64,000 bases of DNA from Thiomonas sp. FB-6 (GTDB lineage: Bacteria; Pseudomonadota; Gammaproteobacteria; Burkholderiales; Burkholderiaceae_C), in the NCBI RefSeq assembly GCF_000377645.1, contig NZ_KB898476.1, forward strand, positions 62,001 through 126,000. The letters are read 5' to 3'. The notes beneath the pieces are model-generated. The model saw nothing but the letters and a program-made list of their open reading frames with translations, searched no databases and had not been told where the DNA came from. The position numbers were made by a program, and so were the translations under genes. Shown here piece by piece: positions 21,490-37,007 of the stretch (the first letter of the stretch is position 1; each line of letters opens with the position of its first letter).

Positions 21490-23469
21490 ATGCCCTTCGC
21501 CATCGACCGCCCCGCCGCCGCGTTGCCGTCGCCCGCGGCGAGCGTGCCACCCTTTCTCGCAACCCTGCCGCCGAGTTCCGCGCAACGGCGGGCGGCCGCG
21601 GCGGTCCTGGCCGCGCTGCTGCTGCTCGCCGCGGCGGCGCTGCCCTGGCTGCACGTGCCGCTGGCGCCGCTGCGTGTGCTGGTTCCGGCCTACCAGACCG
21701 TCATGGCCCTGCTGGCGCTGCTCACCGGCTGGCTGCTGCTCGCGCAGGCCCGCATCCTGAGCTCGCGCGCGCTGCTCGTGCTCAGTGCGAGCTACGGCTT
21801 CTCCGCCGCCATGGCCCTGCTGCTGGCGCTGAGTTTCCCGGGTCTGCGCACGGGCGGAGGATCCTGGCTCGCGCAGGGCTACGCACAGACCACCGCCTGG
21901 CTGTACTTTCTCTGGCATGGCGGCTTCGCGCTGGGCATCGGCGGCTACGCGCTGGCGGCGCGCACGGGCCCGGCGGGAGGCAGGCCGCCTCTTCCGGCCG
22001 CCGCCGCGGCGCTGGCCTGGGGCCTGGCCGCCGCGGCCGCACTGGGCTGCGCGGCCTTCGCCACGGTGGGCTCGGCCTGGGTGCCGCCGCTGATGAGCGG
22101 CGACAGCGACCTTCCCGCGAGGACCTGGGCCGCGCTCGGCGCCTTCGCCACGGGAGCGCTGATGCTGGGGCTGCTGGCATGGCGCCGCCGCACGCGCACC
22201 GTGCTGGACCTCTGGCTGCAGCTGACCCTCGCCGCCTGGGCGCTGGCCGTGCTGCTGGCCGGGGTGCTCAACCACGGCCGCTTCGACCTGGGCTGGTACG
22301 TCGGCCGGCTGTGCAGCCTGGCGGCCGATCTCACGGTGCTGCTCGCGCTGCTGCTGGAGAACAGCGTGCTCTACGCCCGTCTGGCTGAGCAGCATCGCCG
22401 GGAGCACGCCTCGAATCGCCAGCGCCTGCAGGACAGCGAGCAGCGCTTTCGCACCGTGTTCGACCACGCGACGGTGGCCATCAGCGTGCACGACGCCGCC
22501 ACCGGCGCCCTGCTGCAGGCCAACGCCCGCGCCCTGCAGACCTGCGGCGGCGACATGGAGCAGGCGCCGGCGCAAGGCTCGTGGCCCTTCGCCTGCGCGG
22601 CGCCCGCCGCACCCATCCGCGCCGCCGCGGCCGGGCCCAGCCGCATCGAGTGGCGCAGCCAGCGCTCCGACGGCACCGACTACTGGGAGGAGGTGCTGTT
22701 GACACCGGTCCAGCTCGACGGACACCCGCGCGTGCTCGCGGTGGCCAGCGACATCACCGAACGCAAGGAATTGCAGCGCCAGATCCTCGAAGTCAGCACG
22801 GCCGAGCAGGAGCGCATCGGGCGCGAGGTGCACGACGGCATCGGCCAGCAGCTCACCGCGCTCACCATGCTGGCCGGTGCCCTGCAGCGCCGGCTGCGGC
22901 TGGCCGGCCACGAGCCCGAGGCCGAGGCCCTGGGGCAGTTGCAACTGCATCTGCAGTCCACGCTGGAGCAGGCGCGCGCACTCGCACGCGGCCTGGCACC
23001 GGTGGACATCGACCGCCACGACCTGCCCGACGCCTTGCGCGAACTGGCCGCACGGGTGCGCGAAAGCACCGGACTGCACTGCGACTACGCGGGGCTGCTG
23101 CAACTCGAACTGCCGCGGGCCGCGCTGGCGCGCCACCTGTTCCGCATCGCGCAGGAAGGCGTGGCCAACGCGCTGCGCCACGCCGAGGCGACGCGGGTGC
23201 AGATCCGCCTCGAGGCGCACACACCCGGAATCGTGCTGCAGGTGCTGGACGACGGGCGCGGCGTGCAGGTCCCCGGCGCGCGCCGGGGGCGCCTCGGGTT
23301 GCACATCATGGCCTACCGGGCCGACGCGCTGGGCGCACGCCTGTACGTGCGCCGCCGCGCCGCCGGCGGAACCGAGGTGCGCTGCGAATTGCCGCTGGCC
23401 GAGGCGGCAAGGCCGGAGGCCGAGGCCGAGCCCCCGCGAAGCGGTGGCTGTGCCGCCCCGGATGCTTGA
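21490..23469 (+). CDS. Membrane sensor histidine kinase, MASE-type input, PAS, HisKA_3 (NarX/UhpB class)
   Basis: 659 residues. An N-terminal integral membrane sensor of about seven to eight helices (residues 35-300) is followed by a coiled stretch (LAEQHRREHASNRQRLQDSEQRF), a PAS/PAC domain (RTVFDHATVAISVHDA to VLAVASDITERKEL), and a HisKA_3 dimerisation domain with the phosphorylated His in EQERIGREVHDGIGQQLTAL. The ATPase part has LFRIAQEGVANALRHAEA, VLDDGRG and GRLGLHIMAYRA. This class pairs with NarL/LuxR-type regulators, but none is adjacent. The signal is unknown. Confidence 0.92.
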   Translation: MPFAIDRPAAALPSPAASVPPFLATLPPSSAQRRAAAAVLAALLLLAAAALPWLHVPLAPLRVLVPAYQTVMALLALLTGWLLLAQARILSSRALLVLSASYGFSAAMALLLALSFPGLRTGGGSWLAQGYAQTTAWLYFLWHGGFALGIGGYALAARTGPAGGRPPLPAAAAALAWGLAAAAALGCAAFATVGSAWVPPLMSGDSDLPARTWAALGAFATGALMLGLLAWRRRTRTVLDLWLQLTLAAWALAVLLAGVLNHGRFDLGWYVGRLCSLAADLTVLLALLLENSVLYARLAEQHRREHASNRQRLQDSEQRFRTVFDHATVAISVHDAATGALLQANARALQTCGGDMEQAPAQGSWPFACAAPAAPIRAAAAGPSRIEWRSQRSDGTDYWEEVLLTPVQLDGHPRVLAVASDITERKELQRQILEVSTAEQERIGREVHDGIGQQLTALTMLAGALQRRLRLAGHEPEAEALGQLQLHLQSTLEQARALARGLAPVDIDRHDLPDALRELAARVRESTGLHCDYAGLLQLELPRAALARHLFRIAQEGVANALRHAEATRVQIRLEAHTPGIVLQVLDDGRGVQVPGARRGRLGLHIMAYRADALGARLYVRRRAAGGTEVRCELPLAEAARPEAEAEPPRSGGCAAPDA

Positions 23470-23565: not shown

Positions 23566-24519
23566 ATGGGCCTGCTCGACATTGCACGCCGTCTGGGCCT
23601 GCGCGGCGCCGCGCAGCCGGACCACCCGCCCGTCGCCTCATCCCCCGCGCAGCCCGCAGCCGCCGTCCCGCGCGGCCCCGTTCCGGGGCCAGCCGTCGCC
23701 GCCGCGCAACGCATGCCTCCCGCTCCGGGCGACGCCTGCCGCTTTTTCGTCTACGCGACAGGCCAGTCCTGCGTGGCCGGGCGCGGCATGAGCGCGAAGG
23801 AACGCGAGGTGCTGCGCACCCTGGACCAGGCGCTGGAAAAGCCGCGCGCCTTGGCCAACTGGATTCCGCGCCCGCCGTCGGTGCTGCCGCGCCTGCTGGC
23901 CTGCCTGCGCGACGACGAAGCCTCGCTGCGCGAGGCCTGCTCGCTGATCCGCGCCGATCCTTACCTCGCCGCCGAGATCCTGCGCCTGGCCAACTCGGCG
24001 CGCCACCAGCACGGCGCGCCGGTCACCGAACTGGAACGCGCGGTGACCCGCGTGGGCATCGACGGCGTGCGCCGGACGGTCAGCGCCAGCCTGGTGCGCC
24101 CGCTGTTCGACAGCATGCGCGACCCGCTGCTCGGCCAGGCCCTGCCGCGCCTGTGGACCCACGCGCAGACCAAGAGCGACTGGTGCCAGGCGATGGCGGG
24201 CGAGCGCGGCGTCGACGCCTTCGATGCCTACCTCGCCGGGCTCACCCACAACCTGGGCTGGATCGGCGCGCTCAAGGCGCTCGGGCGCAGCCCCTCGGCG
24301 GGAACCGCCAGCGGCTACAGCGCCGAGTTCGCGCTGGCGCTGGGCCGGCGTAGCGAGCGCATGTTCGGCTGCAGCGCCGAGCAGTGGCAGATCAGCGAGG
24401 CCTTGTCGCGCCTGGGCGCGGCCTTGCGCGTGCGCAGCCTGGAGGAATTGCGCGAAGCCCTCGCCGATGTCCTGCGCCAGGCCGACGCGCAAGCCACGCG
24501 CGAACTCGCCGCGGCCTGA
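23566..24519 (+). CDS. HDOD-domain protein
   Basis: 317 residues. After a Pro/Ala-rich 80-residue lead there is an HDOD domain: ANWIPRPPSVLPRLLACLRDDEASLREACSLIRADPYLAAEILRLANSA, LERAVTRVGIDGVRR and LAGLTHNLGWIGALKAL. HDOD domains are HD-superfamily folds without phosphodiesterase residues and often act as scaffolds in signalling. It sits between an orphan kinase and the RpfC-like kinase; whether it belongs to the DSF circuit is unknown. Confidence 0.85.
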   Translation: MGLLDIARRLGLRGAAQPDHPPVASSPAQPAAAVPRGPVPGPAVAAAQRMPPAPGDACRFFVYATGQSCVAGRGMSAKEREVLRTLDQALEKPRALANWIPRPPSVLPRLLACLRDDEASLREACSLIRADPYLAAEILRLANSARHQHGAPVTELERAVTRVGIDGVRRTVSASLVRPLFDSMRDPLLGQALPRLWTHAQTKSDWCQAMAGERGVDAFDAYLAGLTHNLGWIGALKALGRSPSAGTASGYSAEFALALGRRSERMFGCSAEQWQISEALSRLGAALRVRSLEELREALADVLRQADAQATRELAAA

Positions 24520-24553: not shown

Positions 24554-26686
24554 TCAGAACCCTGCGGCCTGCTGCATGGTTTCGGCCACGATGCCGTGCA
24601 GCGCCTCGCGCGTGCGGGTGCTGGTGTCGCGCAGGTCCGCGGCGATGCGCCCGCGGTTTTCCAGCAGGTAGGCATCCTCGGTGCGCATCACGCCCAGCGC
24701 CATGTTCATCAGGCGCATGGCGCCGGTCTCCATGCACACGCCCTTGAGCGCGTGCCCGGCGTCGCGCGCTGCCTGCATGTCGCCGGCAGCCAGCGCGTCC
24801 AGGATGCGCTCCGTGTTGGCCTCGATGTCCTCGGAGGCGCGGTCCAGCAGTTCCTTGATGAACACCTGCCGGGTGCCGATCTGGCGCAGGCGGTCGATGA
24901 CGGCCAGGTCCACGAACACCACCGGCACCGGCCGCAGGTGCGAACTCCCCGCGGCGGCCGCGGGCGCCTGGGCGGAGGCGGCCGCCACCTCGCCCTGCAC
25001 GGGTGCCGCCGCCACGTCGCCGGCGTCCTCGCAGGCCTGGCGGATCGCCGCGCGCAATTCGCGCAGGCGCACCGGCTTGGTCAGCACCCCGAGCGCGCCG
25101 GTGTTGCGCAGCTTCTCGCCCGTCACCACGGTGGCGTCGGCCGTCAGGAAATAGGCCGGCGCCGCGTCGTGCCGGCCGAAGCGATAGGTCTGCAGCAACA
25201 CGCTGCCGTCCATCGCGCCGAGGTTGTAGTCCAGCAGCAGCAGGTCGAAACGGTCGGGCCCCGAGAGGATGTCCAGCGCCTGCTCGCCGCTGGCCGCCGT
25301 GACCACCGAATGCCCTTCGCGCTGCAGCAGTTCCTCCAGCAGGTAGCGGTTGGTCTGGTTGTCGTCGACCACCAGGATGCGCCGGCGGTCCACGTCCTCC
25401 GCCAGCAACTCGTCGTCCAGGGTGGCCGGGCGCTCCTCGGGCCTGGCCTTGCGCGAGCGCTGCATGCGCAGGTCGAACCAGAAGGTGCTGCCCATGCCGA
25501 TCTCCGAGATCAGGCGCAGGTCGCCGCCCATCAGTTCGACCGCCTGCTTGCTGATCGCCAGGCCCAGCCCGGCCCCCTCGGCATGGGCATTCGACTGCCC
25601 CGGCACCTGCACGAAGGGATCGAAGATGCGCTGCTGGAATTCCTTGGCGATGCCCATGCCGGTGTCGCGCACGCTGAAGCGGATGGTGTAGGCGTCGTCA
25701 TGCTGCTGCAGCATGGAGATCTGCAGGGCCACCGATCCGAATTCGGTGAACTTCACCGCGTTGCCCAGCAGGTTGATCAGGACCCGCACCAGCCAGTGCT
25801 GATCCCCGAGCACCGCGTCGGTGATGCGCGGATCCAGCGTGGCCGAGAAGGCCAGTCCCTTCTTCTGGGCCTTCATCTCCACCGAGGCGCGCACCACCTC
25901 GAGCTGCTGCTCCAGGTCCACCGTGTCGACCGACAGCGTGAGCTTGCCCACCGACAGGCGGCTCTGGTCGAGCAAGGCATTGATGTCCGCCAGCAGATGC
26001 GAACTCAGCGACAGGATGGTCTCGGCCAGGCGCTTCTGGCGCTGGTTCGGAATCTCGTTGCGCAGCAGTTCCGCGGCGTTCGAGATTCCCCCCAGCGGGG
26101 TGCGCAATTCATGGCTGGCGCGTGCCAGCAATTCGCTCTTGGCCATGCTTTCGCTTTCCGCGTAGCGCAGCGCCAGGTAGAGCTTGTCCATCAGGATCCC
26201 GACGTAGCCGGGAATGATCACGATGGAAATCATGCACGACAGCCAGAAGCTGAGGTGATCGCGCCAATACGGGACCAGCGGCCCCAGGGCCAGCCCCACC
26301 AGCGAGGCGACCTGCGAGCTGTGCATGATGCCCTTGCTTCCCGTGCGCATGCCGTAGCCGATGGCCGAAAACACGTAGAACGGAACCACCAGCTGCGCAT
26401 AGGGCCCCAGCACCAGGGTCCAGCCGGTCAGTACCGCAGCGTCGGCCACGGCGCAGGCGTGCAGCAGCCAGTCCGGGAAGCGGAACTTGCGTCGCAGGCC
26501 GATCGCGTAGACGGCCCCCGCGTACAGCATGTGCGCGATGCCCACGGCCACCGCGTAGCGCGGCATCGTGCGGGTGAAATGAAAGGCGCCGAGCCCCAGC
26601 AGGATGATCGCGCCGCCGAAGAACAGGCGCACGATCACCTGGCCGCGCAATGCGGCGACGCGGTCGAAGATGACGGGCCTTTGCAT
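24554..26686 (-). CDS. rpfC: RpfC-like hybrid sensor kinase (HisKA-HATPase-REC-Hpt), probable DSF sensor
   Basis: 710 residues, near the length of Xanthomonas RpfC. About five to six membrane helices (residues 18-165) lead into HisKA with the phospho-His192 in ARASHELRTPLGGI, an HATPase (LINLLGNAVKF, DTGMGIA, GAGLGLAISK), a receiver domain with Asp486 in LLLLDYNLGAMDG, and a C-terminal Hpt domain with His645 in AGHALKGVCMETGA. This order, plus the neighbouring HD-GYP regulator and RpfF-like synthase, is the RpfC arrangement: DSF sensing, phosphorelay to RpfG, and RpfF restraint through the receiver. Name by homology and context. Confidence 0.88.
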   Translation of the reverse strand: MQRPVIFDRVAALRGQVIVRLFFGGAIILLGLGAFHFTRTMPRYAVAVGIAHMLYAGAVYAIGLRRKFRFPDWLLHACAVADAAVLTGWTLVLGPYAQLVVPFYVFSAIGYGMRTGSKGIMHSSQVASLVGLALGPLVPYWRDHLSFWLSCMISIVIIPGYVGILMDKLYLALRYAESESMAKSELLARASHELRTPLGGISNAAELLRNEIPNQRQKRLAETILSLSSHLLADINALLDQSRLSVGKLTLSVDTVDLEQQLEVVRASVEMKAQKKGLAFSATLDPRITDAVLGDQHWLVRVLINLLGNAVKFTEFGSVALQISMLQQHDDAYTIRFSVRDTGMGIAKEFQQRIFDPFVQVPGQSNAHAEGAGLGLAISKQAVELMGGDLRLISEIGMGSTFWFDLRMQRSRKARPEERPATLDDELLAEDVDRRRILVVDDNQTNRYLLEELLQREGHSVVTAASGEQALDILSGPDRFDLLLLDYNLGAMDGSVLLQTYRFGRHDAAPAYFLTADATVVTGEKLRNTGALGVLTKPVRLRELRAAIRQACEDAGDVAAAPVQGEVAAASAQAPAAAAGSSHLRPVPVVFVDLAVIDRLRQIGTRQVFIKELLDRASEDIEANTERILDALAAGDMQAARDAGHALKGVCMETGAMRLMNMALGVMRTEDAYLLENRGRIAADLRDTSTRTREALHGIVAETMQQAAGF

Positions 26687-26714
26687 GTCTGTCGCTCTCT
26701 TTCGGCGTCCCGGT

Positions 26715-27785
26715 TTACTGGAAGGTGCGCTGGATGGTCAATATCCGCGATTTGTGCGACAGGAAGGCCTGCACGAAATCCGGATCCAGGTGTTTCCCGG
26801 ACTGCTCGCGCAGATAACCCTCGGCCTGCTCGTAGCTCCAGGGTTCCTTGTAGGGGCGCCGCGAGGTCAGCGCATCGTAGACGTCGACCACCGCCAGGAT
26901 GCGCGCGGAAACCGGAATGTCGTTTCCGGCCAGATGGTCCGGATAGCCGCTGCCGTCGAATTTCTCATGGTGCGAACGCGCGATTTCCGCGGCCACCATC
27001 AGGGGCTCCGAATCGCCTCCGGCCAGCATGGCGTGGCCGATGATGGTGTGCGTGCGCATCACCTCCCATTCCTCCACGGTCAGCGTGCGCCGGGCCAGCA
27101 GAATGCTGTCGGGAATCGCGACCTTGCCGATGTCGTGCAGCGGAGAAGCCAGTTCGATCATCGACGCATAGTTGTCGTCGAAACCCAGGCCACGCGAAAG
27201 CACGGAGGCGTAGCGCCCGATGCGCGACAGGTGCGCGCCGGTGTCGGTATCACGCTGCTCGGCCACCTTGGCCAGGCGCAGCAGCGTGTCCATCTTCTTC
27301 TTCTGCAGGTCCTGCACGACCTGCTCCACCTTGCGCTCCAGGGATTGGGCATGCTGCAGCGTGGCCAGCTGGAAACGCCGCATATTCAAGAGGTTGCGGC
27401 AGCGCGCGGCGCATTCCCGATAATCCAGCGGGCGATTCAGATAATCGTTCGCGCCGGCGTCGAAAGCTTCGTAGCGGATTTGCACGTCCTCCACCGCCGT
27501 GATGCACACGATGGGCGGTTCGTGCAAATGCTCCAGCCTTCTCAGCGCGCGCACCAGTTCGACGCCGGTCATTTGCGGCATGCGGTAATCGGTGAGCACC
27601 AGGTCCACGTCGTGACCCTGCGCGAATTCGACGGCCGCGAAGGGGTCGCAGAAAGCCACGATCTGCCCCTCCGGGCAGAAGCCGCGCGCGATTTCCGTCA
27701 ACAGGTGACAATTGGTCGGCTGATCATCGACGATCAGCACCACCGGCTTGCGCCCCCAGCGATCGCTCACGTTGCCAAGATCCAT
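26715..27785 (-). CDS. rpfG: RpfG-like response regulator with HD-GYP c-di-GMP phosphodiesterase domain
   Basis: 356 residues from the ATG at 27785, preceded by GAGG at 9 nt; a TTG at 27806 is less likely. The receiver domain carries phospho-Asp66 in LVLTDYRMP. A coiled linker (LERKVEQVVQDLQKKKMDTLLRLAKVAEQRD) leads to the HD-GYP domain with LASPLHDIGKVAIPD, HHEKFDGSGYPDHL and ALTSRRPYK, all expected metal and signature residues present. It would hydrolyse c-di-GMP when phosphorylated. It is 28 bp upstream of the RpfC-like gene on the same strand and divergent from the ACP gene. Confidence 0.92.
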   Translation of the reverse strand: MDLGNVSDRWGRKPVVLIVDDQPTNCHLLTEIARGFCPEGQIVAFCDPFAAVEFAQGHDVDLVLTDYRMPQMTGVELVRALRRLEHLHEPPIVCITAVEDVQIRYEAFDAGANDYLNRPLDYRECAARCRNLLNMRRFQLATLQHAQSLERKVEQVVQDLQKKKMDTLLRLAKVAEQRDTDTGAHLSRIGRYASVLSRGLGFDDNYASMIELASPLHDIGKVAIPDSILLARRTLTVEEWEVMRTHTIIGHAMLAGGDSEPLMVAAEIARSHHEKFDGSGYPDHLAGNDIPVSARILAVVDVYDALTSRRPYKEPWSYEQAEGYLREQSGKHLDPDFVQAFLSHKSRILTIQRTFQ

Positions 27786-27922
27786 TGCGACACACCTCGA
27801 TTTCAACAGGTTGGGAGGCTACCCACGGGAGCGCCCGCCGTACCATCGCCACACGCGCACCAAAGCACCGCCGCGAAGCCGCACCGGGCACTTGCCGGAT
27901 CAACGTCCGAGCGCGCCCGCGC

Positions 27923-27972
27923 TTGTCTTGTCACGCCATTTCGGTTAGGCTGGAGCAAACCATGTTACAGGA
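27923..27972 (+). promoter_or_regulatory. Promoter and ribosome site of the ACP-ketosynthase operon
   Basis: TTGTCT (27923-27928) and TAGGCT (27946-27951) are separated by 17 nt, a good sigma-70-type promoter for a GC-rich genome. The predicted transcript start is near 27958. An AGGA (27969-27972) lies 7 nt before the ATG at 27980, which decides the start of the ACP gene over the ATG at 27962. The rest of the divergent gap (27786-27922) shows no clear operator. Confidence 0.5.
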
Positions 27973-27979
27973 AAATTCA

Positions 27980-28246
27980 ATGGACGCCAGATGGACTGAA
28001 GAAAATATTATCGAACTCCTGAAGAAGACGGTTTTCGATACATTTGACATCGACCTCTCCGACGCCACTCCGCAAACTTCGGTTTCCGATATCGGACTCG
28101 ATTCCATGGCCGTGCTGGACGTGATCATGACCGTCGAGGACACGATCGGAATCAAGCTAGGCCGGATCGAACTTCCCAAGAACCCCTCGCTGCAGGACGT
28201 CGCGGCCATGGTCGCGCGCAACGTCGAGGCTCGCGCCAATGAGTGA
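27980..28246 (+). CDS. Acyl carrier protein, linked to the DSF locus
   Basis: 88 residues from MDARWTEENI. The phosphopantetheine-attachment motif is DIGLDSMAVLD with Ser42. Helix pattern and acidic composition are those of an ACP, but the sequence is not the housekeeping AcpP (it lacks EDSLDTVELVMALEE-like wording), so it is a specialised carrier. The ketosynthase gene overlaps its end in ATGAGTGA (28239-28246), so the two are translationally coupled. The gene is visibly less GC-rich than its neighbours. Probable role: carrying the acyl chain used by the RpfF-like enzyme 1.5 kb downstream (inference). Confidence 0.92.
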   Translation: MDARWTEENIIELLKKTVFDTFDIDLSDATPQTSVSDIGLDSMAVLDVIMTVEDTIGIKLGRIELPKNPSLQDVAAMVARNVEARANE

Positions 28247-29459
28247 CATCGCCATCACCGGGATCGGCGTGGTCTCGCCGATCGGCAACAGCCCGTCCGA
28301 GGTGTCCCAAAGCCTTTCGAACCTGCGTTCCGGGGTTCGTGTTTTCGAATCTCCGGATCTCTCCCGCCCCTTTCCGGTCGCCCCGGTCGAGGCCCAGTTC
28401 CGCGACCGCTTCAGCCGAATCGAACTGCCTTTCCTGGATCGTACAACCCAACTGGCCCTGGTTGCGGCGCGCCAGGCCGCGGAAAGTGCCGGAATTGTGG
28501 ACTATTCCACACTTGGCGAACGTGCCGGGGTGTTTTACGGCACCGTGCGAGGCGGCGGCACAACGGAATGGGAGGGAATCCGCCAGTTCTATATCGAAGG
28601 ACGGCGCACGACCAAGCCCTACGTGATCATGGGCTGCATGAACAATGCCGCCGCATCCTTCATCTCCATCCACCACAAGGTCTTCGGGCCCACCGCCTGC
28701 CATTCCTCGGCCTGCTCCTCCTCCGGCGCGGCGATCGCCGACGCCTGCCGGCACATCGCCAGCGGCGAGATCGACATCGCCTTCGCCGGCGGGGCCGAGT
28801 CGGCGCTGATGCCCGTGTTCCTCGGCGCCTGGGACGGCCTGCGCGCGCTGGCCGAGGTGGACGCCGACCCCTCGCGCAGCTGCAAGCCCTTCTCCGCCCA
28901 GCGCACCGGCCTGGTCCTCGGCGAAGGCAGCGTGTTCTTCATGCTGGAGTCGCGCGCCCACGCCGAGGCGCGCGGCGCGAACATCCTCGGCTTCGTCGAA
29001 GGCTGGGGCCTTGCCTCCGACGCCTATCACATCGGCGCGCCGCACCAGCGCGGGCAGATCGCCGCGCTGCGCGCGGCCTTGCGCCAGGCCGGCGCGGATC
29101 CCGGGCAGATCGACTACATCAACGCCCACGCCACGGCGACCAAGGGCGGCGATCCGGTGGAAGTAGCCTCGCTCAAGGAAGTGTTCGGCGAGCACAGCGC
29201 GAGCATTCCCGTCAGTTCCACCAAGTCGCTGCACGGGCACATGCTGGGGGCGGCCAGCGCCATGGAAATGCTGGCCTGCCTGCTGGCCATGCGCGACGGC
29301 TTCCTGCCGGCGACGGCCAACCTGGACGAGATCGACCCCGATTGCGCGGGGCTGAACCACGTCACCCAGGCCAACGTGCCCGGCACGGTGCGGCGCGCGC
29401 TGTCGCTGTCGGCCGGCTTCGGCGGCATCAACGCCGCGCTGGTGCTCCGCGCGGCTTGA
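28239..29459 (+). CDS. Beta-ketoacyl-ACP synthase (KAS I/II type), linked to the DSF locus
   Basis: 406 residues, thiolase fold. The catalytic triad is visible: Cys159 in CHSSACSSSGAA, His297 in NAHATATKGGD and His334 in STKSLHGHMLGAAS, with Lys329. The C-terminus SAGFGGINAALVL is typical. It condenses malonyl-ACP with acyl-ACP. It overlaps the ACP gene by 8 bp. The first 300-400 bases use more A/T codons than the rest. It is not fabF of the housekeeping fab cluster, which is absent here. Its place before an RpfF-like gene suggests a role in making the DSF acyl chain. Confidence 0.93.
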   Translation: MSDIAITGIGVVSPIGNSPSEVSQSLSNLRSGVRVFESPDLSRPFPVAPVEAQFRDRFSRIELPFLDRTTQLALVAARQAAESAGIVDYSTLGERAGVFYGTVRGGGTTEWEGIRQFYIEGRRTTKPYVIMGCMNNAAASFISIHHKVFGPTACHSSACSSSGAAIADACRHIASGEIDIAFAGGAESALMPVFLGAWDGLRALAEVDADPSRSCKPFSAQRTGLVLGEGSVFFMLESRAHAEARGANILGFVEGWGLASDAYHIGAPHQRGQIAALRAALRQAGADPGQIDYINAHATATKGGDPVEVASLKEVFGEHSASIPVSSTKSLHGHMLGAASAMEMLACLLAMRDGFLPATANLDEIDPDCAGLNHVTQANVPGTVRRALSLSAGFGGINAALVLRAA

Positions 29460-29461
29460 GC

Positions 29462-29484
29462 CCCTCGGCCCCGCGAGCCGAGGG
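29462..29484 (+). terminator. Hairpin after the ketosynthase gene
   Basis: CCCTCGGC (29462-29469) and GCCGAGGG (29477-29484) form an 8-bp GC stem with a 7-nt loop, 2 bp after the ketosynthase stop. No T run follows, so termination may be partial and some transcription may reach the RpfF-like gene. Confidence 0.45.
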
Positions 29485-29564
29485 CGGGACGCCGCGGGCC
29501 CGCGCCAAGGAGCCGACGCGCCGGGCCGCGCAGCGAGCCGAAGCGGCCCCACGCGGCCGCGCGT

Positions 29565-29580
29565 CGTCAAATTCTTGACG
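29565..29580. promoter_or_regulatory. Palindrome CGTCAA-N4-TTGACG before the RpfF-like gene
   Basis: A perfect 6+4+6 inverted repeat, CGTCAAATTCTTGACG, lies 131 bp before the preferred start of the DSF synthase gene. The right arm TTGACG is also a near-consensus -35 box, so a bound protein would cover a promoter. No good -10 is seen at 16-18 nt. The remainder of 29460-29711 holds nothing else clear. Confidence 0.35.
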
Positions 29581-29711
29581 GCAGCCGCTGCCCCGGGACC
29601 GGGTACGCCCCGGGGAGCGCGGTTGCCAGGGAGCCGGGCAAGGCCCCTGGCATCGTCCTTGCTTGAGGGATGCCGAGCGCCTGTGGAGGCGCATCGGCGA
29701 ATCCCCCGACC

Positions 29712-30605
29712 ATGATCCCGCAGCAGACTCTGTCCCGCCTGAAATACCTGCCGCAGTTGGCCCCGGCCGAGAGCGCGCTGGTGCAGACCCGCTTCGATGC
29801 CGCCAGTTCCGCGCTGTGGGTCTCCATGGTCCCGCGCGAGGGCAAGCCCCACAACTTCTCCCGCGAACTGCTGGGCTCCCTGCAGTCGCTCACCGAGCAT
29901 TTCGACGAACTGGGCCCGCGCTGGGAGACCGAGACCGGCGAGGAAGCGGTGCACTACGTGATCCTGCGTTCCCTGCACCCCGAGTACTTCAGCCTGGGCG
30001 GCGACCTGGCGCATTTCCTCGACTGCATCCGGGCCCGCGACAGCCATGCCCTGCAGCGCTATTCGATGCAGTGCCTGGACATGATCTACCGCTGGGCCAC
30101 CGTGCTCAACCGCAAGTCCACGACCGTTTCGCTGGTGCAGGGCCGCGCGCTGGGCGGCGGCTTCGAGGCCGCGCTGGCCGCCGATTTCATCATCGCCGAG
30201 GAACAGGCCGAGTTCGGCCTGCCGGAGATCCTGTTCGGGCTGTTCCCCTGCTCCGGGGGCATGAGCCTGCTGGCGCGCCGCATCGGCGTGGCCGCGGCCG
30301 AGCGCCTGATGCGCAGCGGCAAGATCTACTCCGCCGCCGAGATGCTCGAGATGGGCGTGATCGACGAGATCTGCCCGACCGGGCGCGGCGAAGCCGCGGT
30401 GCGCGAATTCCTCGCCGAGCACGCCAAGCGCCGCAAGGCGCGCATGGCCCTGCAGCGCGCACGCCTGCGCATGCAGCCGCTGGACTACGCCGAGCTGGCC
30501 ACCGTGGTGGACGAATGGGTGGACACGGCGCTGCAACTCGACGATGACGAGATCCGCGTGCTGGAAACCCTGGTGCGCATGCAGCGCACCGAGTTCGCCC
30601 ACTGA
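29712..30605 (+). CDS. rpfF: RpfF-like DSF synthase (crotonase family)
   Basis: 297 residues from MIPQQTL; an ATG at 29670 would add 14. RpfF enzymes dehydrate 3-hydroxyacyl-ACP and release the free cis-2-unsaturated fatty acid signal. The oxyanion and catalytic region is very close to the RpfF pattern: LVQGRALGGGFEAALAAD with Glu152, then EFGLPEILFGLFP with Glu172. The 20-residue spacing equals that of Glu141 and Glu161 in Xanthomonas RpfF. RSLHPEYFSLGGDLAHF and KSTTVSLVQG also fit. An ordinary enoyl-CoA hydratase is less likely given the FEAAL and LPE pair and the RpfC/RpfG neighbours. Confidence 0.9.
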   Translation: MIPQQTLSRLKYLPQLAPAESALVQTRFDAASSALWVSMVPREGKPHNFSRELLGSLQSLTEHFDELGPRWETETGEEAVHYVILRSLHPEYFSLGGDLAHFLDCIRARDSHALQRYSMQCLDMIYRWATVLNRKSTTVSLVQGRALGGGFEAALAADFIIAEEQAEFGLPEILFGLFPCSGGMSLLARRIGVAAAERLMRSGKIYSAAEMLEMGVIDEICPTGRGEAAVREFLAEHAKRRKARMALQRARLRMQPLDYAELATVVDEWVDTALQLDDDEIRVLETLVRMQRTEFAH

Positions 30606-30755: not shown

Positions 30756-32408
30756 ATGACCGTTGCCCAACGCCTGTACCTCCTGATCGCACTGGCGATC
30801 GCCGGCCTGCTGGGCCTGTCCGGCTTCGGATCCTCGCAGATCCACCAGGTGTTCGAGTCCACCAATTTCGCCAACGTCCACACGGTGCCCGCGCTGGTCG
30901 ACCTCGACCTGCTGCGCGACCATTTCCTGCGCGTGCGCCGCTGGACCAACGACGTCGTCAACCGCCCCGGCCCCGACGAGCTTCGCAACGCGCGCACCCG
31001 CATCCAGCAGGATTCGCGCATCGTCGAGCAATCCCTGGCCGACTACGCCAGGACCGCCGACGACCCGCGCGACAAGCAGTTGCTCCAGACCGAGAGCGCC
31101 TCCTGGCAGGCCTACTCCAAGAGCGTTTCGCAGATCCTCGCCGCCATCGCGGGCGGCAACATGGACCTGACCCAGCAGCTGCAGCCCGGCAACAACGCCG
31201 ACGCGGACCGCCTGGCCAGGCAGATCGACGCGCATTTCGACTTCAACGTGAAGCAGGCCCACGCCGGCGCCGCTACCGCGCAGCAGGCCATGGCCAGCAG
31301 CATGCTGCGCTTCCTGCTGGTCAGCGCCGTGCTGGCCGTGGTGCTGCTCGCCGGCGGCTGGCTGATCGTGCGCGCGCTGCTGCGCCAGCTCGGCGGCGAA
31401 CCGGCGATCGCCGCGGACATCGTGCGCAAGGTCGCCGCCGGCGACCTCACCGTGCACGTGCCCACGCGCGCCGGAGACACCCGCAGCATGCTCGCCGCGG
31501 TGCGCGAGATGGTGGAGAAGCTCGCCGTCACGCTGGGCTCCGTGCGCGCCGCGGCGGACAACCTTTCTGCGGCCTCGGTGCAGGTGTCCAGCACATCGCA
31601 AAGCCTGTCCCAGGGCGCCTCCGAACAGGCCGCCTCGGTGGAACAGACCTCGGCCACGCTGGAGCAGTCGGCCGCCTCCATCAAGCAGAACGCCGACAAC
31701 GCGCGCCTGACCGCGGGCATGGCCCGCCAGGCCGCGCAGCAGGCCCGCGACGGCGGCACCGCGGTGCGCAAGACCGTCGACGACATGCAGGCCATCGCCG
31801 AACGCATCGGCATCGTCGACGACATCGCCTACCAGACCAACATGCTGGCGCTCAACGCCGCCATCGAGGCGGCGCGCGCCGGCGAGCACGGCAAGGGCTT
31901 CGCCGTGGTGGCCGCCGAGGTGCGCAAGCTGGCCGAGAGCGCGCAAGTCGCCGCGCGCGAGATCGGCGAGCTCGCCTCCAGCTCGGTCAGGCAGGCCGAG
32001 GCCGCGGGCGAACTTCTGGACCAGGTGGTGCCGGCCATCACCCGCACCAGCGAACTCATCGAGGAAATCGACGCCGCCAGCGCCGAGCAGTCGACGGGCA
32101 TCGAACAGATCAACCAGGCGATGTCCCAGCTCAACGGCACCACCCAGCAGAACGCCTCGGCCTCCGAGCAGCTGGCGGCCACCGCCGAGCAGCTCCACGG
32201 CCAGTCGGCCGAGCTGCAGTCGCAGGTGGTGCAGTTCCGCCTGCCGGGGCCCGGGGGCATCGTCGCGTCCGACGCCGGCGCGCTGCGCCCGGCGCAGGGC
32301 CACGTCCCGCGGGCGGCGACGCAAGCTGCCGCGCGCCCGGCTTCGGCCCCAGCGGCCGGCCCCGCCGCCGCGCAGGCGCTGGCGCAGGAGCAGTTCGTCA
32401 AGTTCTAG
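30756..32408 (+). CDS. Methyl-accepting chemotaxis protein
   Basis: 550 residues. Helix 1 ([18 protein letters not shown]), a four-helix-bundle periplasmic domain to about residue 190 ([27 protein letters not shown]), helix 2 ([20 protein letters not shown]), HAMP, and the cytoplasmic signalling domain with [37 protein letters not shown] at the tip. The C-terminus ends [12 protein letters not shown] after an Ala/Pro linker, with no NWETF-type pentapeptide. It is the next gene after the DSF synthase, 150 bp away. Ligand unknown; no che genes are nearby. Confidence 0.95.
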
Positions 32409-32449: not shown

Positions 32450-32971
32450 TCAGGGGCCGGACGGATCGACGGGAATCACGGCGATCGGCCGCCGCTGCCC
32501 GGACGCAGATTGAGCGCCGTCGCCCGGCGCACCGATTCCGAGGATGCTCGCCACCACCGAAGGCGCCGCGACCGCATCGGCCAGCGTCGCCTTGTCGAGC
32601 TCGAACATGAAGGCGTCGACCGCGCGCCGCAGCACCCGCTTGAGGTTGCACACCTGGGCGATCGCGCAATCGGGCTCCGCGGCCGCGTCATGGCATTCCA
32701 CGACGGCAAAATCCTTCTCCACCATGCGCACGATCTCCCCGATGGAGATCGAAGCGGGGTCTCGGGTCAGGCGCACGCCGCCGGCCCGGCCGCGCGCCGT
32801 TTCCAGCACCCCATGGTGCGCGAGTTCGTTGACCACCTTCTTCAGGTGGCTGCGGGAGATCCGGTAGGCATCGGCGATTTCGTCGATGGTGCCGCTGCCC
32901 TGGCCGCAGCGCTCCAGGCTCAGGTAGATCAGAACACGCAGCGCATAGTCGGTGCGCATGGTCAGCCGCAT
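32450..32971 (-). CDS. nsrR: Rrf2-family regulator, NsrR type (nitric-oxide sensing repressor)
   Basis: 173 residues. N-terminal Rrf2 winged helix MRLTMRTDYALRVLIYLSL and SRSHLKKVVNELAHHGVLET, followed by GRAGGVRLTRDP. The cluster ligands are three cysteines in VECHDAAAEPDCAIAQVCNLKRVL, the NsrR spacing of C-x8-C-x5-C. NsrR holds a 4Fe-4S cluster that NO destroys, lifting repression. An AAGGAGA site precedes the ATG. It is divergent from nnrS, a classic NsrR target, which supports the name. The tail after residue 140 is longer than usual. Confidence 0.9.
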   Translation of the reverse strand: MRLTMRTDYALRVLIYLSLERCGQGSGTIDEIADAYRISRSHLKKVVNELAHHGVLETARGRAGGVRLTRDPASISIGEIVRMVEKDFAVVECHDAAAEPDCAIAQVCNLKRVLRRAVDAFMFELDKATLADAVAAPSVVASILGIGAPGDGAQSASGQRRPIAVIPVDPSGP

Positions 32972-33075
32972 GGCGTGGTCTCCTTATCGTTCCTCAGGAA
33001 GTGATCTTATTCCTGCCCCGGGCACAAGCGCCTGCGACGCAGCTTCTTGCTGGGTGCTTGGTACGGAGCCCGGAG

Positions 33076-33122
33076 TTGCAAGCGACGATCGCCTTTCTAT
33101 AATAGACATTCTACATGAATGT
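33076..33122 (+). promoter_or_regulatory. nnrS promoter with an overlapping NsrR-like inverted repeat
   Basis: TTGCAA (33076-33081) and consensus TATAAT (33098-33103) are 16 nt apart. Just after the -10 lies the inverted repeat ACATTC-TACAT-GAATGT (33106-33122), 6-bp arms around 5 nt, over the predicted transcription start. Its position and the divergent nsrR gene make it a likely NsrR operator, though the arms differ from the enteric consensus. Confidence 0.6.
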
Positions 33123-33136
33123 TTTGGAGGGCCATC

Positions 33137-34342
33137 GTGGCTCGATTACAGGTTTCCGCGGAAACTGCCGCGCACCCCGCCGCCACGGGATGGCCGCTGC
33201 TGCGCCTGGGCTTTCGGCCCTTCTACCTGGGCGCGTCGGCCTATGCCGTGCTCGCGATGGGGCTCTGGTTCCTCGTCTTCACCGGTCGCATGGAGGTCGC
33301 ACCGCGGCTGAGCCCGGTGCTGTGGCACGCGCACGAGATGCTCTACGGCTTCGTCGTGGCCGTGATCGTGGGCTTCCTGCTCACCGCCGGCCGGGTCTGG
33401 ACCCAGCTGTCGACCCCGCGCGGGCCCGCGCTGGGCGCGCTGTTCGCGCTGTGGGCGGCCGGCCGCGTCGCCGCGGCCAGCGGCCCCTACATGCTCTTCT
33501 TCCTGCTCGATGGATCCTTCCTGATCATCGTCGCCGCCGTGTTCGCGGGGCTGCTGCTGCGCGCGGGGAACCGGCGCAATGCCGCGGTCGGCGGCGTGCT
33601 GGCCCTGCTGGCCCTGCTGGCCCTGGCCAACGTGCTGTTCCATCTCGCCGTCCTGGCGGTCGTACCCATCGATCCGATGCGCGCCATCTACGCGGCCATC
33701 GCCCTCGTGGTCCTGCTCGAGTGCATCATCGGCGGGCGCGTGATCCCGCAGTTCAGCCGCAACGCCGTGCCCGGTCTGCAACTGGCGGTGTCGCCACGGC
33801 GCGAACTGCTGGCGGCCGCCGTGACCGGCATCGGGCTGCTGGCCTGGGTCCTGGGAGCGCCGGCGACCGCCACCGCGGTGCTGCTCGCCGCCACCGCGGT
33901 GCTGCAGGCGTTGCGCCTGCTGTCGTGGAAACCGTGGCGCAGCCTGGGGCGCCCGATCCTGTGGGTGCTGCACCTGGGGTATGCCTGGATCCCGGTCGGG
34001 CTGGCACTGCTGGCGGCCGCGCAGGTGGGATGGATTCCAGCGTCGCCGGCGCTGCACGCGTTGACCGTGGGCTCGATGGGAGGACTGATCATCGGCATGC
34101 TCACCCGCACCGCGCGCGGCCATACCGCACGCCCCTTGCAGGCGGGCCCGGTCGAGGTGGCCGCCTATGCGGCGCTGCTCCTCGCCGCCCTCGTGCGGGT
34201 GGCAGCCCCCTTGCTGCTGCCTGCGCTGAGCGTGCCGGCGCTGCTGGCTTCAGGACTTCTGTGGATGCTCGGTTTCGCCGCCTACCTCGCGCGCTTCGCG
34301 CCCTGGCTGCTCGCGACCCGCCTCGACGGGCGCGACGGTTGA
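33137..34342 (+). CDS. nnrS: NnrS family membrane protein
   Basis: 401 residues, about twelve membrane helices, haem-copper protein induced by NO and linked to nitrosative stress. Signatures: LLRLGFRPFYLGASAYAVL, LWHAHEMLYGFVVAVIVGFLLTAGRVWT, GGRVIPQFSRNAV and LHALTVGSMGGLIIGMLTRTARGHTARPL, which supply the conserved histidines. The GTG at 33137 is chosen because GGAGG (33126-33130) stands 6 nt before it; an ATG at 33119 would overlap the operator region. Confidence 0.94.
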   Translation: MARLQVSAETAAHPAATGWPLLRLGFRPFYLGASAYAVLAMGLWFLVFTGRMEVAPRLSPVLWHAHEMLYGFVVAVIVGFLLTAGRVWTQLSTPRGPALGALFALWAAGRVAAASGPYMLFFLLDGSFLIIVAAVFAGLLLRAGNRRNAAVGGVLALLALLALANVLFHLAVLAVVPIDPMRAIYAAIALVVLLECIIGGRVIPQFSRNAVPGLQLAVSPRRELLAAAVTGIGLLAWVLGAPATATAVLLAATAVLQALRLLSWKPWRSLGRPILWVLHLGYAWIPVGLALLAAAQVGWIPASPALHALTVGSMGGLIIGMLTRTARGHTARPLQAGPVEVAAYAALLLAALVRVAAPLLLPALSVPALLASGLLWMLGFAAYLARFAPWLLATRLDGRDG

Positions 34343-34396
34343 GCCGAGCCGCCCGATGAGGGCCGGCGCGGGCCCGGGGCCGCGCGGGATGGAGGT

Positions 34397-34720
34397 TCAG
34401 CGCAGAAGCTTGTCGCGCTTGCGCTGCACGGCCGCCCACTCGTCCGCATCGGGCAGAGCCCGCTTGGTCTTCACGATAGGCTTCCACGCGCGCGCCAGCT
34501 CGGCGTTCAGTGCGATGTATTCCTGCTGGTCGCCGGGCACGTCGTCGTCGGCGAAGATGGCGCCCACCGGACATTCGGGCACGCACACGGCGCAGTCGAT
34601 GCATTCGTCGGGGTCGATGGCCAGGAAATTCGGCCCTTCGCGAAAGGCATCCACCGGGCACACGTCCACGCAGTCGGTGTACTTGCAGGCGACGCAGGCC
34701 TCGGTGACAACGTAGGTCAT
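34397..34720 (-). CDS. fdxA: Ferredoxin FdxA (7Fe type)
   Basis: 107 residues from [17 protein letters not shown]. The cysteines [19 protein letters not shown] and [17 protein letters not shown] give one 3Fe-4S and one 4Fe-4S cluster, as in Azotobacter ferredoxin I. The C-terminal extension of some 50 residues is normal for this family. It is the last gene after the suf run on the same strand, 46 bp after sufT, and may be co-transcribed with it. Confidence 0.95.
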
Positions 34721-34766
34721 GATGCAAGGGTCTCCATGGCTGCGCATGCGGGCAGCGCCCGCCGCC

Positions 34767-35318
34767 TCACAGCAGCCCCAGTGAAAGCCGGGCCGCCTCG
34801 CTCATCATCGAGCGGTTCCAGGGCGGATCGAACACCACGTCGACCTCGGCGCGGGCCACCCGCGGCAGCGCGAGCAGCCGCTCGGCCACCTCGTCGGCCA
34901 GTTGCCGGCCCATGCCGCAGCCCGCTGCGGTCAAGGTCATCTCGATGCGCAGGTCGAAGCGGCCGTCATCCTGCCTGCGAAGGTCGCAGCGGTACACCAG
35001 GCCGAGCTCGACGATGCTGCAGGGAATCTCGGGGTCGTAGATCTCCCCCAGTTCCTCCCACACCCATCGCTGCAATTCCTCGTCGCTGGGCTCGGTCGGG
35101 CGCCGCGCCGCCTCGCGGCACGGCATCCCGATGGCGTCGCCGTCGCTGCCGTCGATGCGCCACAACAGGCCGTCGGCCAGCACGGTGTAGCTCGATCCCA
35201 GCGCCTGGGTCAGCACCCCCTCCAATCCGGGCTCGAGCAGGTACCAGTCTCCCGACGGCACCTGCTGCGCCCTCACCTGCCGCCGCACCGCCACGGCTTC
35301 ACGCGCGCCCGGCTTCAT
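34767..35318 (-). CDS. sufT: SufT-like iron-sulfur assembly protein (MIP18/DUF59)
   Basis: 183 residues from MKPGAREAV. The N-terminal part ([30 protein letters not shown]) is the stretch peculiar to bacterial SufT, and the C-terminal DUF59 domain reads [40 protein letters not shown] and [24 protein letters not shown]. SufT helps mature iron-sulfur proteins under high demand. The start overlaps the end of sufU by 20 bp, so it belongs to the operon. Confidence 0.9.
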
Positions 35319-35775
35319 CGCCTTGCTCCCGCTCCTGTGTCCCGGCCGCCGGCTCGCCCAGGCACTTGCCCAGCGCGTGCCAGGCCAGCGCGGCGCACTT
35401 GATGCGCGACGGGAAACGCCGCACCCCCTGCAGCAGGGCCAGCTTGCCGAGCACGGGCTCGTCGACCTCGCCGTCAAGCGTCAGCATGCGATGCATCGCC
35501 CGCAAGGCCACGCGCGCGTCGACCAGCCTGGCGCCATGCACCGCCTCGGTCATCAGCGAGGCCGAGGCCATGCAGATCGCACAGCCCTGGCCCTCGAAGG
35601 CGATGTCCTCGATGCGCTCGCCACGCGTGCGCAGGCGCAAGGTGATGGTGTCTCCGCATAGCGGGTTGTGGCCGTGGGACTCGCAGGTGGCATCCGGCAG
35701 GGGACCGTAGTGCCGCGGGTGGCGCTTGTGGTCCAGCACCACGTCCTGGTAGAGCAGGCTGAGTTCGTCGTTCAT
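35299..35775 (-). CDS. sufU: SufU-type iron-sulfur scaffold / sulfur-transfer protein
   Basis: 158 residues from MNDELSLLYQDVVLDHKRHPRHYG. The zinc and sulfur-acceptor ligands are present: Cys40 and Asp42 in NPLCGDTITL, Cys65 in GQGCAICMAS and Cys127 in RIKCAALAWHAL. SufU takes sulfur from SufS. It overlaps sufS in ATGA (35772-35775). The presence of SufU in place of SufE resembles the Firmicute-type SUF arrangement. Confidence 0.94.
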   Translation of the reverse strand: MNDELSLLYQDVVLDHKRHPRHYGPLPDATCESHGHNPLCGDTITLRLRTRGERIEDIAFEGQGCAICMASASLMTEAVHGARLVDARVALRAMHRMLTLDGEVDEPVLGKLALLQGVRRFPSRIKCAALAWHALGKCLGEPAAGTQEREQGDEAGRA

Positions 35776-37007
35776 CGCAGTCTCTCGCAGGTTTCGCGCA
35801 CGCCATCGAGCAGCGCCTGCACGTCCTCGAGGGTGTTGTGCACGCTGAGCGAGGCGCGCACGGTGGCGGGCACCCCGAAGCGCCGCATCACGGGCATCGC
35901 GCAATGATGGCCGACACGCACCGCGATGCCGCGGCGGTCGAGGACGGTACCGACGTCGTGCGCGTGCACGCCGTCGACGACAAAGGAAAGCGCTCCCTGC
36001 TTGGGCGTGCCGGCGGCCAGCACGCGCACTCCGGGCAGCGCGCTCAGGCCGCGTTCCATCGCCGCCAGCAGCTGGTGCTCGGCCTGGAGCAGCCTGGCCC
36101 GGTCGAAGCTCTCCAGGAAGGCGATGGCCGCGTGCAGGCCCACGGCTCCCGAGATGTTGGGCGTGCCGGCCTCCAGCCGAGCCGGCAGAGGCGCGTAGGT
36201 CGCGGACTCCAGCGTGACGGTCTCGATCATGTCTCCCCCGCCGAACAAGGGAGGAATGCGCTCGAGAACGGATTCACGGCCGTAGAGCACGCCGATTCCC
36301 GTCGGGCCGTACATCTTGTGGGCCGAGAAGGCGTAGAAATCGCAACCCAGCGCCTGCACGTCGACCTCGGCATGCGCGACCGCCTGCGCCCCGTCGACCA
36401 CCGTCACCAGCCCGGCGGCGCGGGCGCGCGCGAGCAGCGCGGCCAGGTCGACCACCGTACCCAGCACGTTGGACACCTGGGTGAGCGCAAGCACGCGCGA
36501 GCGCGGACCGAGCAGGGCCTCGAAAGCCTCCACGGCGAGCAGGCCGTCGTCGCGCACCGGGATGAAGCGAAGGCGCGCACCGCTGCGCGCGCAGGCCATC
36601 TGCCACGGCACCAGGTTGGCATGGTGCTCGAGCGCCGTGACGATCACTTCGTCGCCCGGCCTCAGCCCCGCGCCCAGTCCGATGGCCGCGAGGTTGAGCG
36701 CCTCGGTGGCGCCGCGCGTGAAAATGATCTCGCGCGTCGCCGAGGCATGCACGAAGGCGCGCACAGCCTCGCGGGCGTCCTCGAAGCGCGTCGTCGCACG
36801 TTCGGCCAGGGCGTGCACGCCGCGGTGCACGTTGGCATGGTCGAAGGACTGGTAGTGCGCGATCGCCTCGATCACGCAGCGCGGCGTGAGCGTCGATGCC
36901 GCTCCGTCCAGGTACACCAGCCGCTGCCCGTGCACGGTCTGCGCCAGCGCTGGAAAGCTGGAGGCGGCCGCCCCAGGCAGCGCGGCGGGGAGATCGCGAG
37001 GGTTCAT
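35772..37007 (-). CDS. sufS: Cysteine desulfurase SufS
   Basis: 411 residues. PLP enzyme that takes sulfur from cysteine. RLVYLDGAASTLTPRCV, HANVHRGVHALAERAT, the PLP lysine Lys231 in FSAHKMYGPTGIGVLYG, and the persulfide Cys369 in RVGHHCAMPVM. The GHHCAMPVM wording marks the SufS (group II) type. It overlaps sufD by 4 bp (ATGA) upstream and sufU by 4 bp downstream. Confidence 0.96.
   Translation of the reverse strand: MNPRDLPAALPGAAASSFPALAQTVHGQRLVYLDGAASTLTPRCVIEAIAHYQSFDHANVHRGVHALAERATTRFEDAREAVRAFVHASATREIIFTRGATEALNLAAIGLGAGLRPGDEVIVTALEHHANLVPWQMACARSGARLRFIPVRDDGLLAVEAFEALLGPRSRVLALTQVSNVLGTVVDLAALLARARAAGLVTVVDGAQAVAHAEVDVQALGCDFYAFSAHKMYGPTGIGVLYGRESVLERIPPLFGGGDMIETVTLESATYAPLPARLEAGTPNISGAVGLHAAIAFLESFDRARLLQAEHQLLAAMERGLSALPGVRVLAAGTPKQGALSFVVDGVHAHDVGTVLDRRGIAVRVGHHCAMPVMRRFGVPATVRASLSVHNTLEDVQALLDGVRETCERLR

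Follow-up and report, generated by a model that had tools for sequence, protein, structure and literature searches.

In the genome of Thiomonas sp. FB-6 (assembly GCF_000377645.1, 4.2 Mb in 79 contigs and given as 99.7% complete) we analysed a stretch of 64,000 nucleotides, hereafter the window (contig NZ_KB898476.1, positions 62,001 to 126,000), which holds a five-gene locus resembling the rpf genes of diffusible signal factor (DSF) quorum sensing. Two minus-strand genes, for a hybrid histidine kinase and an HD-GYP response regulator, diverge from three plus-strand genes for an acyl carrier protein (ACP), a ketosynthase and a crotonase (Table 1). An earlier note on this DNA had reported a complete DSF locus in a Burkholderiales-like genome; it named three of the five genes and did not mention the ACP and the ketosynthase between them. 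Its RpfC-like kinase, RpfG-like regulator and RpfF-like synthase agree with the Pfam domains, all the residues that it listed are present, and the suggested origin fits, as NCBI places Thiomonas in the Burkholderiales. Genes for a DSF-type synthase, receptor and output are thus in place, but "complete" goes too far for a locus whose signal we can only infer.

Table 1. Features of the rpf-like locus and its flanks (positions in the window)
Feature	Position	Strand	Remarks
RpfC-like hybrid histidine kinase	24554..26686	-	N-terminal membrane sensor, HisKA, HATPase_c, Response_reg (Pfam), HPt-like end
RpfG-like response regulator, HD-GYP	26715..27785	-	Pfam Response_reg and HD_5; TTG start at 27806 in the open reading frame list
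Intergenic region separating the divergent regulator and ACP genes	27786..27961	.	Both promoters presumed here from the sequence
Acyl carrier protein	27962..28246	+	PF00550, E 3.4e-8; Ser48 in GLDSM; alternative start 27980
FabF-like ketosynthase	28239..29459	+	Overlaps the ACP stop; Cys159, His297, Lys329, His334
RpfF-like crotonase, DSF-type synthase	29712..30605	+	Pfam ECH_1; start at 29670 in the open reading frame list
HDOD-domain gene adjoining the kinase (tentative, optional member)	23566..24519	+	PF08668
Chemotaxis receptor flanking the locus	30756..32408		Pfam scan

The best solved relative of the crotonase by sequence is Xanthomonas RpfF (E 2.6e-46), and a fold search of its predicted structure (mean pLDDT 86) against the PDB also placed Xanthomonas RpfF first (3m6m/3m6n, best E 6.0e-24), followed by 5fus, 6dgn and 7zq7, with the first other crotonase at E 1.7e-16. 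Both catalytic glutamates are present (Glu152 and Glu172, corresponding to 141 and 161 in Xanthomonas campestris pv. campestris, Xcc) and are invariant in 15 aligned crotonases. The protein scores 286 bits with the broader model NF006452 (cut-off 177) and 183 bits with the RpfF equivalog model NF053515, well below its cut-off of 550; no other crotonase of the same genome exceeds 47 bits with the RpfF model. Weak matches to that model also turn up in 11 of 14 control genomes, never above the cut-off. After de-duplication (176 to 123 synthases, 70 to 43 ketosynthases) trees were computed. In a synthase tree of 71 rows, with one distant outgroup row and 44 non-subfamily rows hand-picked to span families, the 24 rows of the subfamily to which the window synthase belongs were set apart by a single branch (SH-aLRT 99). 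A second tree had 50 rows, with 17 non-subfamily rows hand-picked to span families and seven rows from the hydratase side; in it six crotonases of the window's genome together with DspI of Pseudomonas aeruginosa fell on one side of a branch (100/99), and 18 ordinary RpfF rows together with RpfF of Burkholderia cenocepacia on one side of another (99/100); the latter protein lies across a branch from the subfamily in both trees. The comparison with ordinary enoyl-CoA hydratases that the earlier note had proposed thus separates the synthase from them, and identity with an ordinary hydratase was rejected on the 100/99 branch, the RpfF-first fold matches and the bit scores (47 against 183).

The ACP and the ketosynthase resemble the housekeeping AcpP and FabF of type II fatty-acid synthesis, a Cys-His-His ketosynthase adjoining an ACP; the ACP serine is invariant in 8 aligned ACPs and the four ketosynthase residues of Table 1 in 13 aligned copies. 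Unlike housekeeping FabF, however, the ketosynthases of the subfamily loci form one clade of their own (19 rows, a length filter having dropped partial copies such as L063 and L066), with the FabF-like and other ketosynthases of the window's genome outside. The window copy shares no more than 42% identity with the three further ketosynthases of its genome and no more than 46% with the non-module ones of the six genomes searched. Ketosynthase and synthase distances correlate (Mantel r 0.69 over 13 pairs, none of 9999 permutations as high), a result that is only indicative because the 13 pairs are related.

Of 399 genomes sampled from the family, a profile search recovered the subfamily in 5 (436-491 bits), namely four of the six searched genomes of the window's genus and one other, G049. 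In a sample of 369 genomes of the class, 35 (the window's not counted) reached E 1e-70, the best at 288 bits; 24 of these were fetched, and 23 read GMG after the second glutamate, as ordinary RpfF does, while one (L153) was unreadable. A scan of named genomes with the synthase gave 20 relatives, 16 of them titled Proteobacteria, Betaproteobacteria or Thiomonas, the others being Lysobacter xinjiangensis, Luteimonas suaedae and two Bacteroidota. A ketosynthase lies within 6 kb of the synthase in 17 of the 18 proteobacterial relatives, including Lysobacter and Luteimonas; the contig of the eighteenth (L061) ends 2.1 kb upstream, with no ketosynthase in that flank. The RpfF-like crotonases of Aquimarina and Flavobacterium (L069, L070) are distant (30-32% identity), and BLAST found none of the partner genes in the 20 kb fetched for each. 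A search of plasmid proteins returned 5 records at 37-38%.

Across 23 subfamily loci, a set that includes two pairs judged by length to be one contig seen twice, the kinase was found within 6 kb of the synthase in 22 (missing only from L063, a contig of 3.7 kb), the ketosynthase likewise in 22 (missing only from L061) and the HD-GYP gene in 12; in 20 the ketosynthase is directly upstream of the synthase on the same strand. The ACP was detected in 14 of the 23 by BLAST and, by hidden Markov model (HMM), in 15 of 24 stretches (the 23 loci plus L202), together 16 of 24. The HMM screened open reading frames of 150-700 bases only and missed the ACP of L164, which BLAST found; ordinary loci may be undercounted in the same way. 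Within the same distance, 64 ordinary RpfF loci of the order have the kinase in 24, the HD-GYP gene in 16 and a ketosynthase in 6, never directly upstream of the synthase (0/64), and an ACP anywhere in the stretch in 4 by HMM; for six ordinary loci of the class the figures were 6 with a kinase, 4 with an HD-GYP gene and none with a ketosynthase. In 40 of the 64 ordinary loci BLAST found no RpfC-like kinase within 6 kb (e.g. L072, L073, L077, L079-L081 and L084-L088).

These counts shift the interest of the locus. A Xanthomonas-style RpfC/RpfG pair had been singled out as unusual, but such pairs are not rare even in ordinary loci of the order, and a review of 2015 records clusters of rpfF, rpfG and rpfC for Methylophaga, Leptospirillum, Thiobacillus and Methylobacillus, hence outside Xanthomonas and including Betaproteobacteria (PMC4504480); the kinase/regulator pair as the surprise was therefore rejected. 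Rather, the ACP and the ketosynthase appear to belong to the system, because a ketosynthase accompanies 17 of 18 relatives against 6 of 64 ordinary loci. That the two genes stand there by accident is very improbable: some ketosynthases beside ordinary RpfF loci do look coincidental (L100 and L111, where they sit in a gene run that we take to be aryl-polyene-like), yet the genes of the subfamily loci have been kept together through rearrangement, across genera and into the Lysobacteraceae, and no ordinary locus has the ketosynthase directly upstream. G049 has the same five genes in a different order, and its synthase is very close to that of L061 (Thiomonas sp.). The Lysobacter and Luteimonas loci run ketosynthase, synthase, kinase on the opposite strand and ACP, and BLAST found no HD-GYP gene at either. 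G547 has a full five-gene set plus a second kinase/ketosynthase/synthase set, and in G695 an HD-GYP gene, an ACP and a ketosynthase without synthase lie about 29 kb from a kinase/ketosynthase/synthase set.

Two loci, L060 and L065, combine a single kinase with two ketosynthase-synthase pairs. Their second synthase copies read GGD/LGGGFE; the first copies (L060:5512-6429 and L065:1651-2601) have lost glycines near the active site, reading GVD/LGAGFE and GAD/LGTGFE, and keep both catalytic glutamates; they are possibly a changed or dying enzyme. Genomes of this kind might produce a second signal, or an antagonist next to the signal. The layout of G049 looks like that of L060 minus one synthase and one ketosynthase. 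The genomes seen all retain at least one intact-looking synthase together with the kinase.

The synthase differs from its Xanthomonas counterpart in the pocket. Of ten active-site and pocket positions compared with Xcc RpfF it keeps eight (Gly85, Leu136, Gly137, Gly138, Glu141, Glu161, Trp258 and Leu276), and Gly169 and Met170 are replaced by Cys and Ser. Position 169 is Cys in 14 of 15 subfamily rows; position 170 is Ser or Thr in most, otherwise Asn or Gly, and Met in none of the 15, whereas all ten ordinary RpfF rows compared keep both Gly169 and Met170. A mini-review suggests that the precursor may be touched by Met170 and Trp258 (PMC9864630); of this pair the window keeps Trp258 and not Met170. 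Over all fetched loci, some of which represent one and the same gene, the motif after the second glutamate reads GMGAY in 97, with a further 9, L114 among them, showing a variant, and subfamily loci read C-(S/T/N/G)-G with one exception, GNG in the first copy of L060.

The kinase has five hydrophobic segments before its core, two of them overlapping. Its relay residues His192, Asp486 and His645 are invariant in 12 aligned relatives; Pfam reported no histidine phosphotransfer (HPt) domain, and the HALKG stretch around His645 is, from its motif, a putative HPt. The regulator carries Asp66, HD at 217 and GYP at 280. Xcc RpfC is described as sensing DSF by an N-terminal strip of 22 residues in which Arg15, Asp17, Ser18, Glu19 and Gln22 matter (PMC5391125). 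All 11 aligned module kinases keep Gln22 and an Arg four residues further on; none keeps Asp17, Ser18 or Glu19, the place of Glu19 being taken by Leu, Met, Ile or Val, and Arg at position 15 occurs in the window's row alone. A sensor-like match was obtained for 27 ordinary kinase rows; by eye, 23 of these have Glu19 (the exceptions being L012, L090, L095 and L142) and 12 have RPD(S/T)E. Nine further ordinary rows gave no such match. The pattern used detected no H-box in the kinases of L048, L128, L163, L166 and L167. Structure prediction of the sensor, another check that had been proposed, yielded an all-helical model (mean pLDDT 86), for which Foldseek found nothing in the PDB at or below E 0.001, the top hit having E 1.1.

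These differences bear on whether the locus is simply an ordinary DSF or Burkholderia diffusible signal factor (BDSF) system, in which the ACP and the ketosynthase would only boost the usual 3-hydroxyacyl-ACP, the changed residues would be drift and the signal a known cis-2-enoic acid. Eight of ten pocket positions unchanged, RpfF as the best fold match and the retained sensor Gln22 are what this explanation expects. It is nevertheless unlikely, if not to be dismissed lightly, as position 170 is changed in every subfamily row, the three sensor residues that Xanthomonas RpfC needs are lost in every aligned kinase, and the module ketosynthases form a clade apart from housekeeping FabF. A signal other than the known DSF and BDSF acids is probable, because this lineage is distinct at position 170, at the three sensor residues and in the biosynthetic genes beside the synthase.

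The locus shares with Xanthomonas both catalytic glutamates and the RpfF fold, a membrane-bound hybrid kinase with a receiver, and a receiver-HD-GYP output protein with its relay residues. It differs in the added ACP and ketosynthase, in the pocket, in a sensor without Asp17, Ser18 and Glu19 and in an equivalog score far below cut-off. "Xanthomonas-style", as the RpfC/RpfG pair had been called, thus holds for the gene set of the locus and fails for the synthase pocket, the receptor sensor and the neighbouring biosynthetic genes. With the BDSF systems of Burkholderia and Cronobacter it has in common a DSF-type crotonase, 5fus and 6dgn being next by fold, but unlike their RpfF/RpfR arrangement the synthase here neighbours a pair of the RpfC/RpfG kind. 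RpfR is a PAS-GGDEF-EAL receptor, and neither a GGDEF nor an EAL domain was found in the neighbouring proteins, to which the search was confined and among which three translations came from wrong reading frames. Since the sensor residues, Met170 and the equivalog score all depart from it, we do not file the locus under the Xanthomonas type, though it is DSF-like in its working; it is best called a sister variant. Among the open-licence PMC papers that our searches listed, no title or abstract opening mentions an ACP-ketosynthase pair in an rpf locus. What is new here is the dedicated ACP-ketosynthase pair, together with a synthase and a receptor that have both changed.

On balance we lean towards a quorum-sensing system of the DSF-like kind that has a fatty-acid branch dedicated to it, with its own ACP and ketosynthase. 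In Xanthomonas the substrate of RpfF is 3-hydroxyacyl-ACP, which it dehydrates and splits at the thioester, and DSF synthesis there also draws on a special reductase, FabG2 (PMC5941067). In the window, the ketosynthase would elongate an acyl chain on the module's own ACP, and a housekeeping reductase would form the 3-hydroxyacyl-ACP. The crotonase, whose catalytic residues are present, would convert this to cis-2-enoyl-ACP and then cleave the thioester as Xanthomonas RpfF does. The free acid would be sensed by the N-terminal strip and membrane bundle of the kinase, and phosphate may pass along the residues present, from His192 to Asp486, to His645 and to Asp66 of the HD-GYP regulator, which would lower cyclic di-GMP. 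More tentatively, and with somewhat less than even confidence, we suggest that the signal chemistry is private, the ACP and the ketosynthase building a chain that general metabolism does not supply and the receptor sensor having changed in step.

The three biosynthetic genes might instead make a non-signal lipid or small metabolite, with the kinase and HD-GYP pair controlling it or sensing something else. Elsewhere in these genomes ACP-ketosynthase pairs do lie in clusters that look biosynthetic (L203, L204 and L205). We regard this as quite improbable, for the RpfC-like kinase is kept in nearly all subfamily loci, and no recurring tailoring genes were seen among the genes called beside the synthase in the eight sequences inspected.

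Several observations weigh against a dedicated branch that changed together with synthase and receptor. In the window 252 bases separate the ketosynthase from the synthase, and a shared operon is at most a possibility. No ACP was found in the fetched stretches of the loci classed as type B only (L058, L059, L064/L162 and L165); among such loci an ACP is known for G695 only, at the distance given above. At L049 (179-5425) an ACP-ketosynthase pair lies just upstream of rpfG-rpfC with an ordinary synthase and sensor, and at L076 (2849-7135) a contig-end ketosynthase adjoins rpfG-rpfC, again with an ordinary synthase and sensor, which means that such genes can be recruited without the other changes; the L049 ketosynthase was placed outside the module clade and looks like a separate recruitment. 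One ordinary locus (L114) reads GNGAY, its position 170 not being Met. In the 50-row tree the hydratases attach inside the subfamily, which stood on one side in only 14% of bootstrap trees; the rooting appears ambiguous, and this tree would not decide whether the subfamily or ordinary RpfF is the derived group. The named genomes come from one scan with patterns from two synthases.

Of the flanking genes, the HDOD-domain gene also occurs nearby in L051-L055, L057, L060, L163 and L164 and was not found in L045, L062, L067 and L068. Beside it, upstream of the locus, is a MASE4-domain histidine kinase (21490-23469). On the other side a run at 32450-36935 encodes an Rrf2 regulator, an NnrS protein and a class-V aminotransferase, presumably iron-sulphur assembly genes. 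A plus-strand open reading frame opposite the kinase and regulator genes (26604-28022) was rejected as a gene; it looks like no more than the complement of the genes lying opposite, and its DNA gave three short partial matches only, elsewhere in the genome.

Finding RpfF, RpfC and RpfG side by side is no proof that the signal is DSF. The DSF synthases studied in Xanthomonas draw on the general fatty-acid pool (PMC5941067), and this origin leaves open how a species obtains a signal of its own. A lineage in which pocket, sensor and a neighbouring carrier/elongation pair have all diverged would illustrate how signals diverge in nature, and the locus predicts a fatty-acid signal that can be sought directly.

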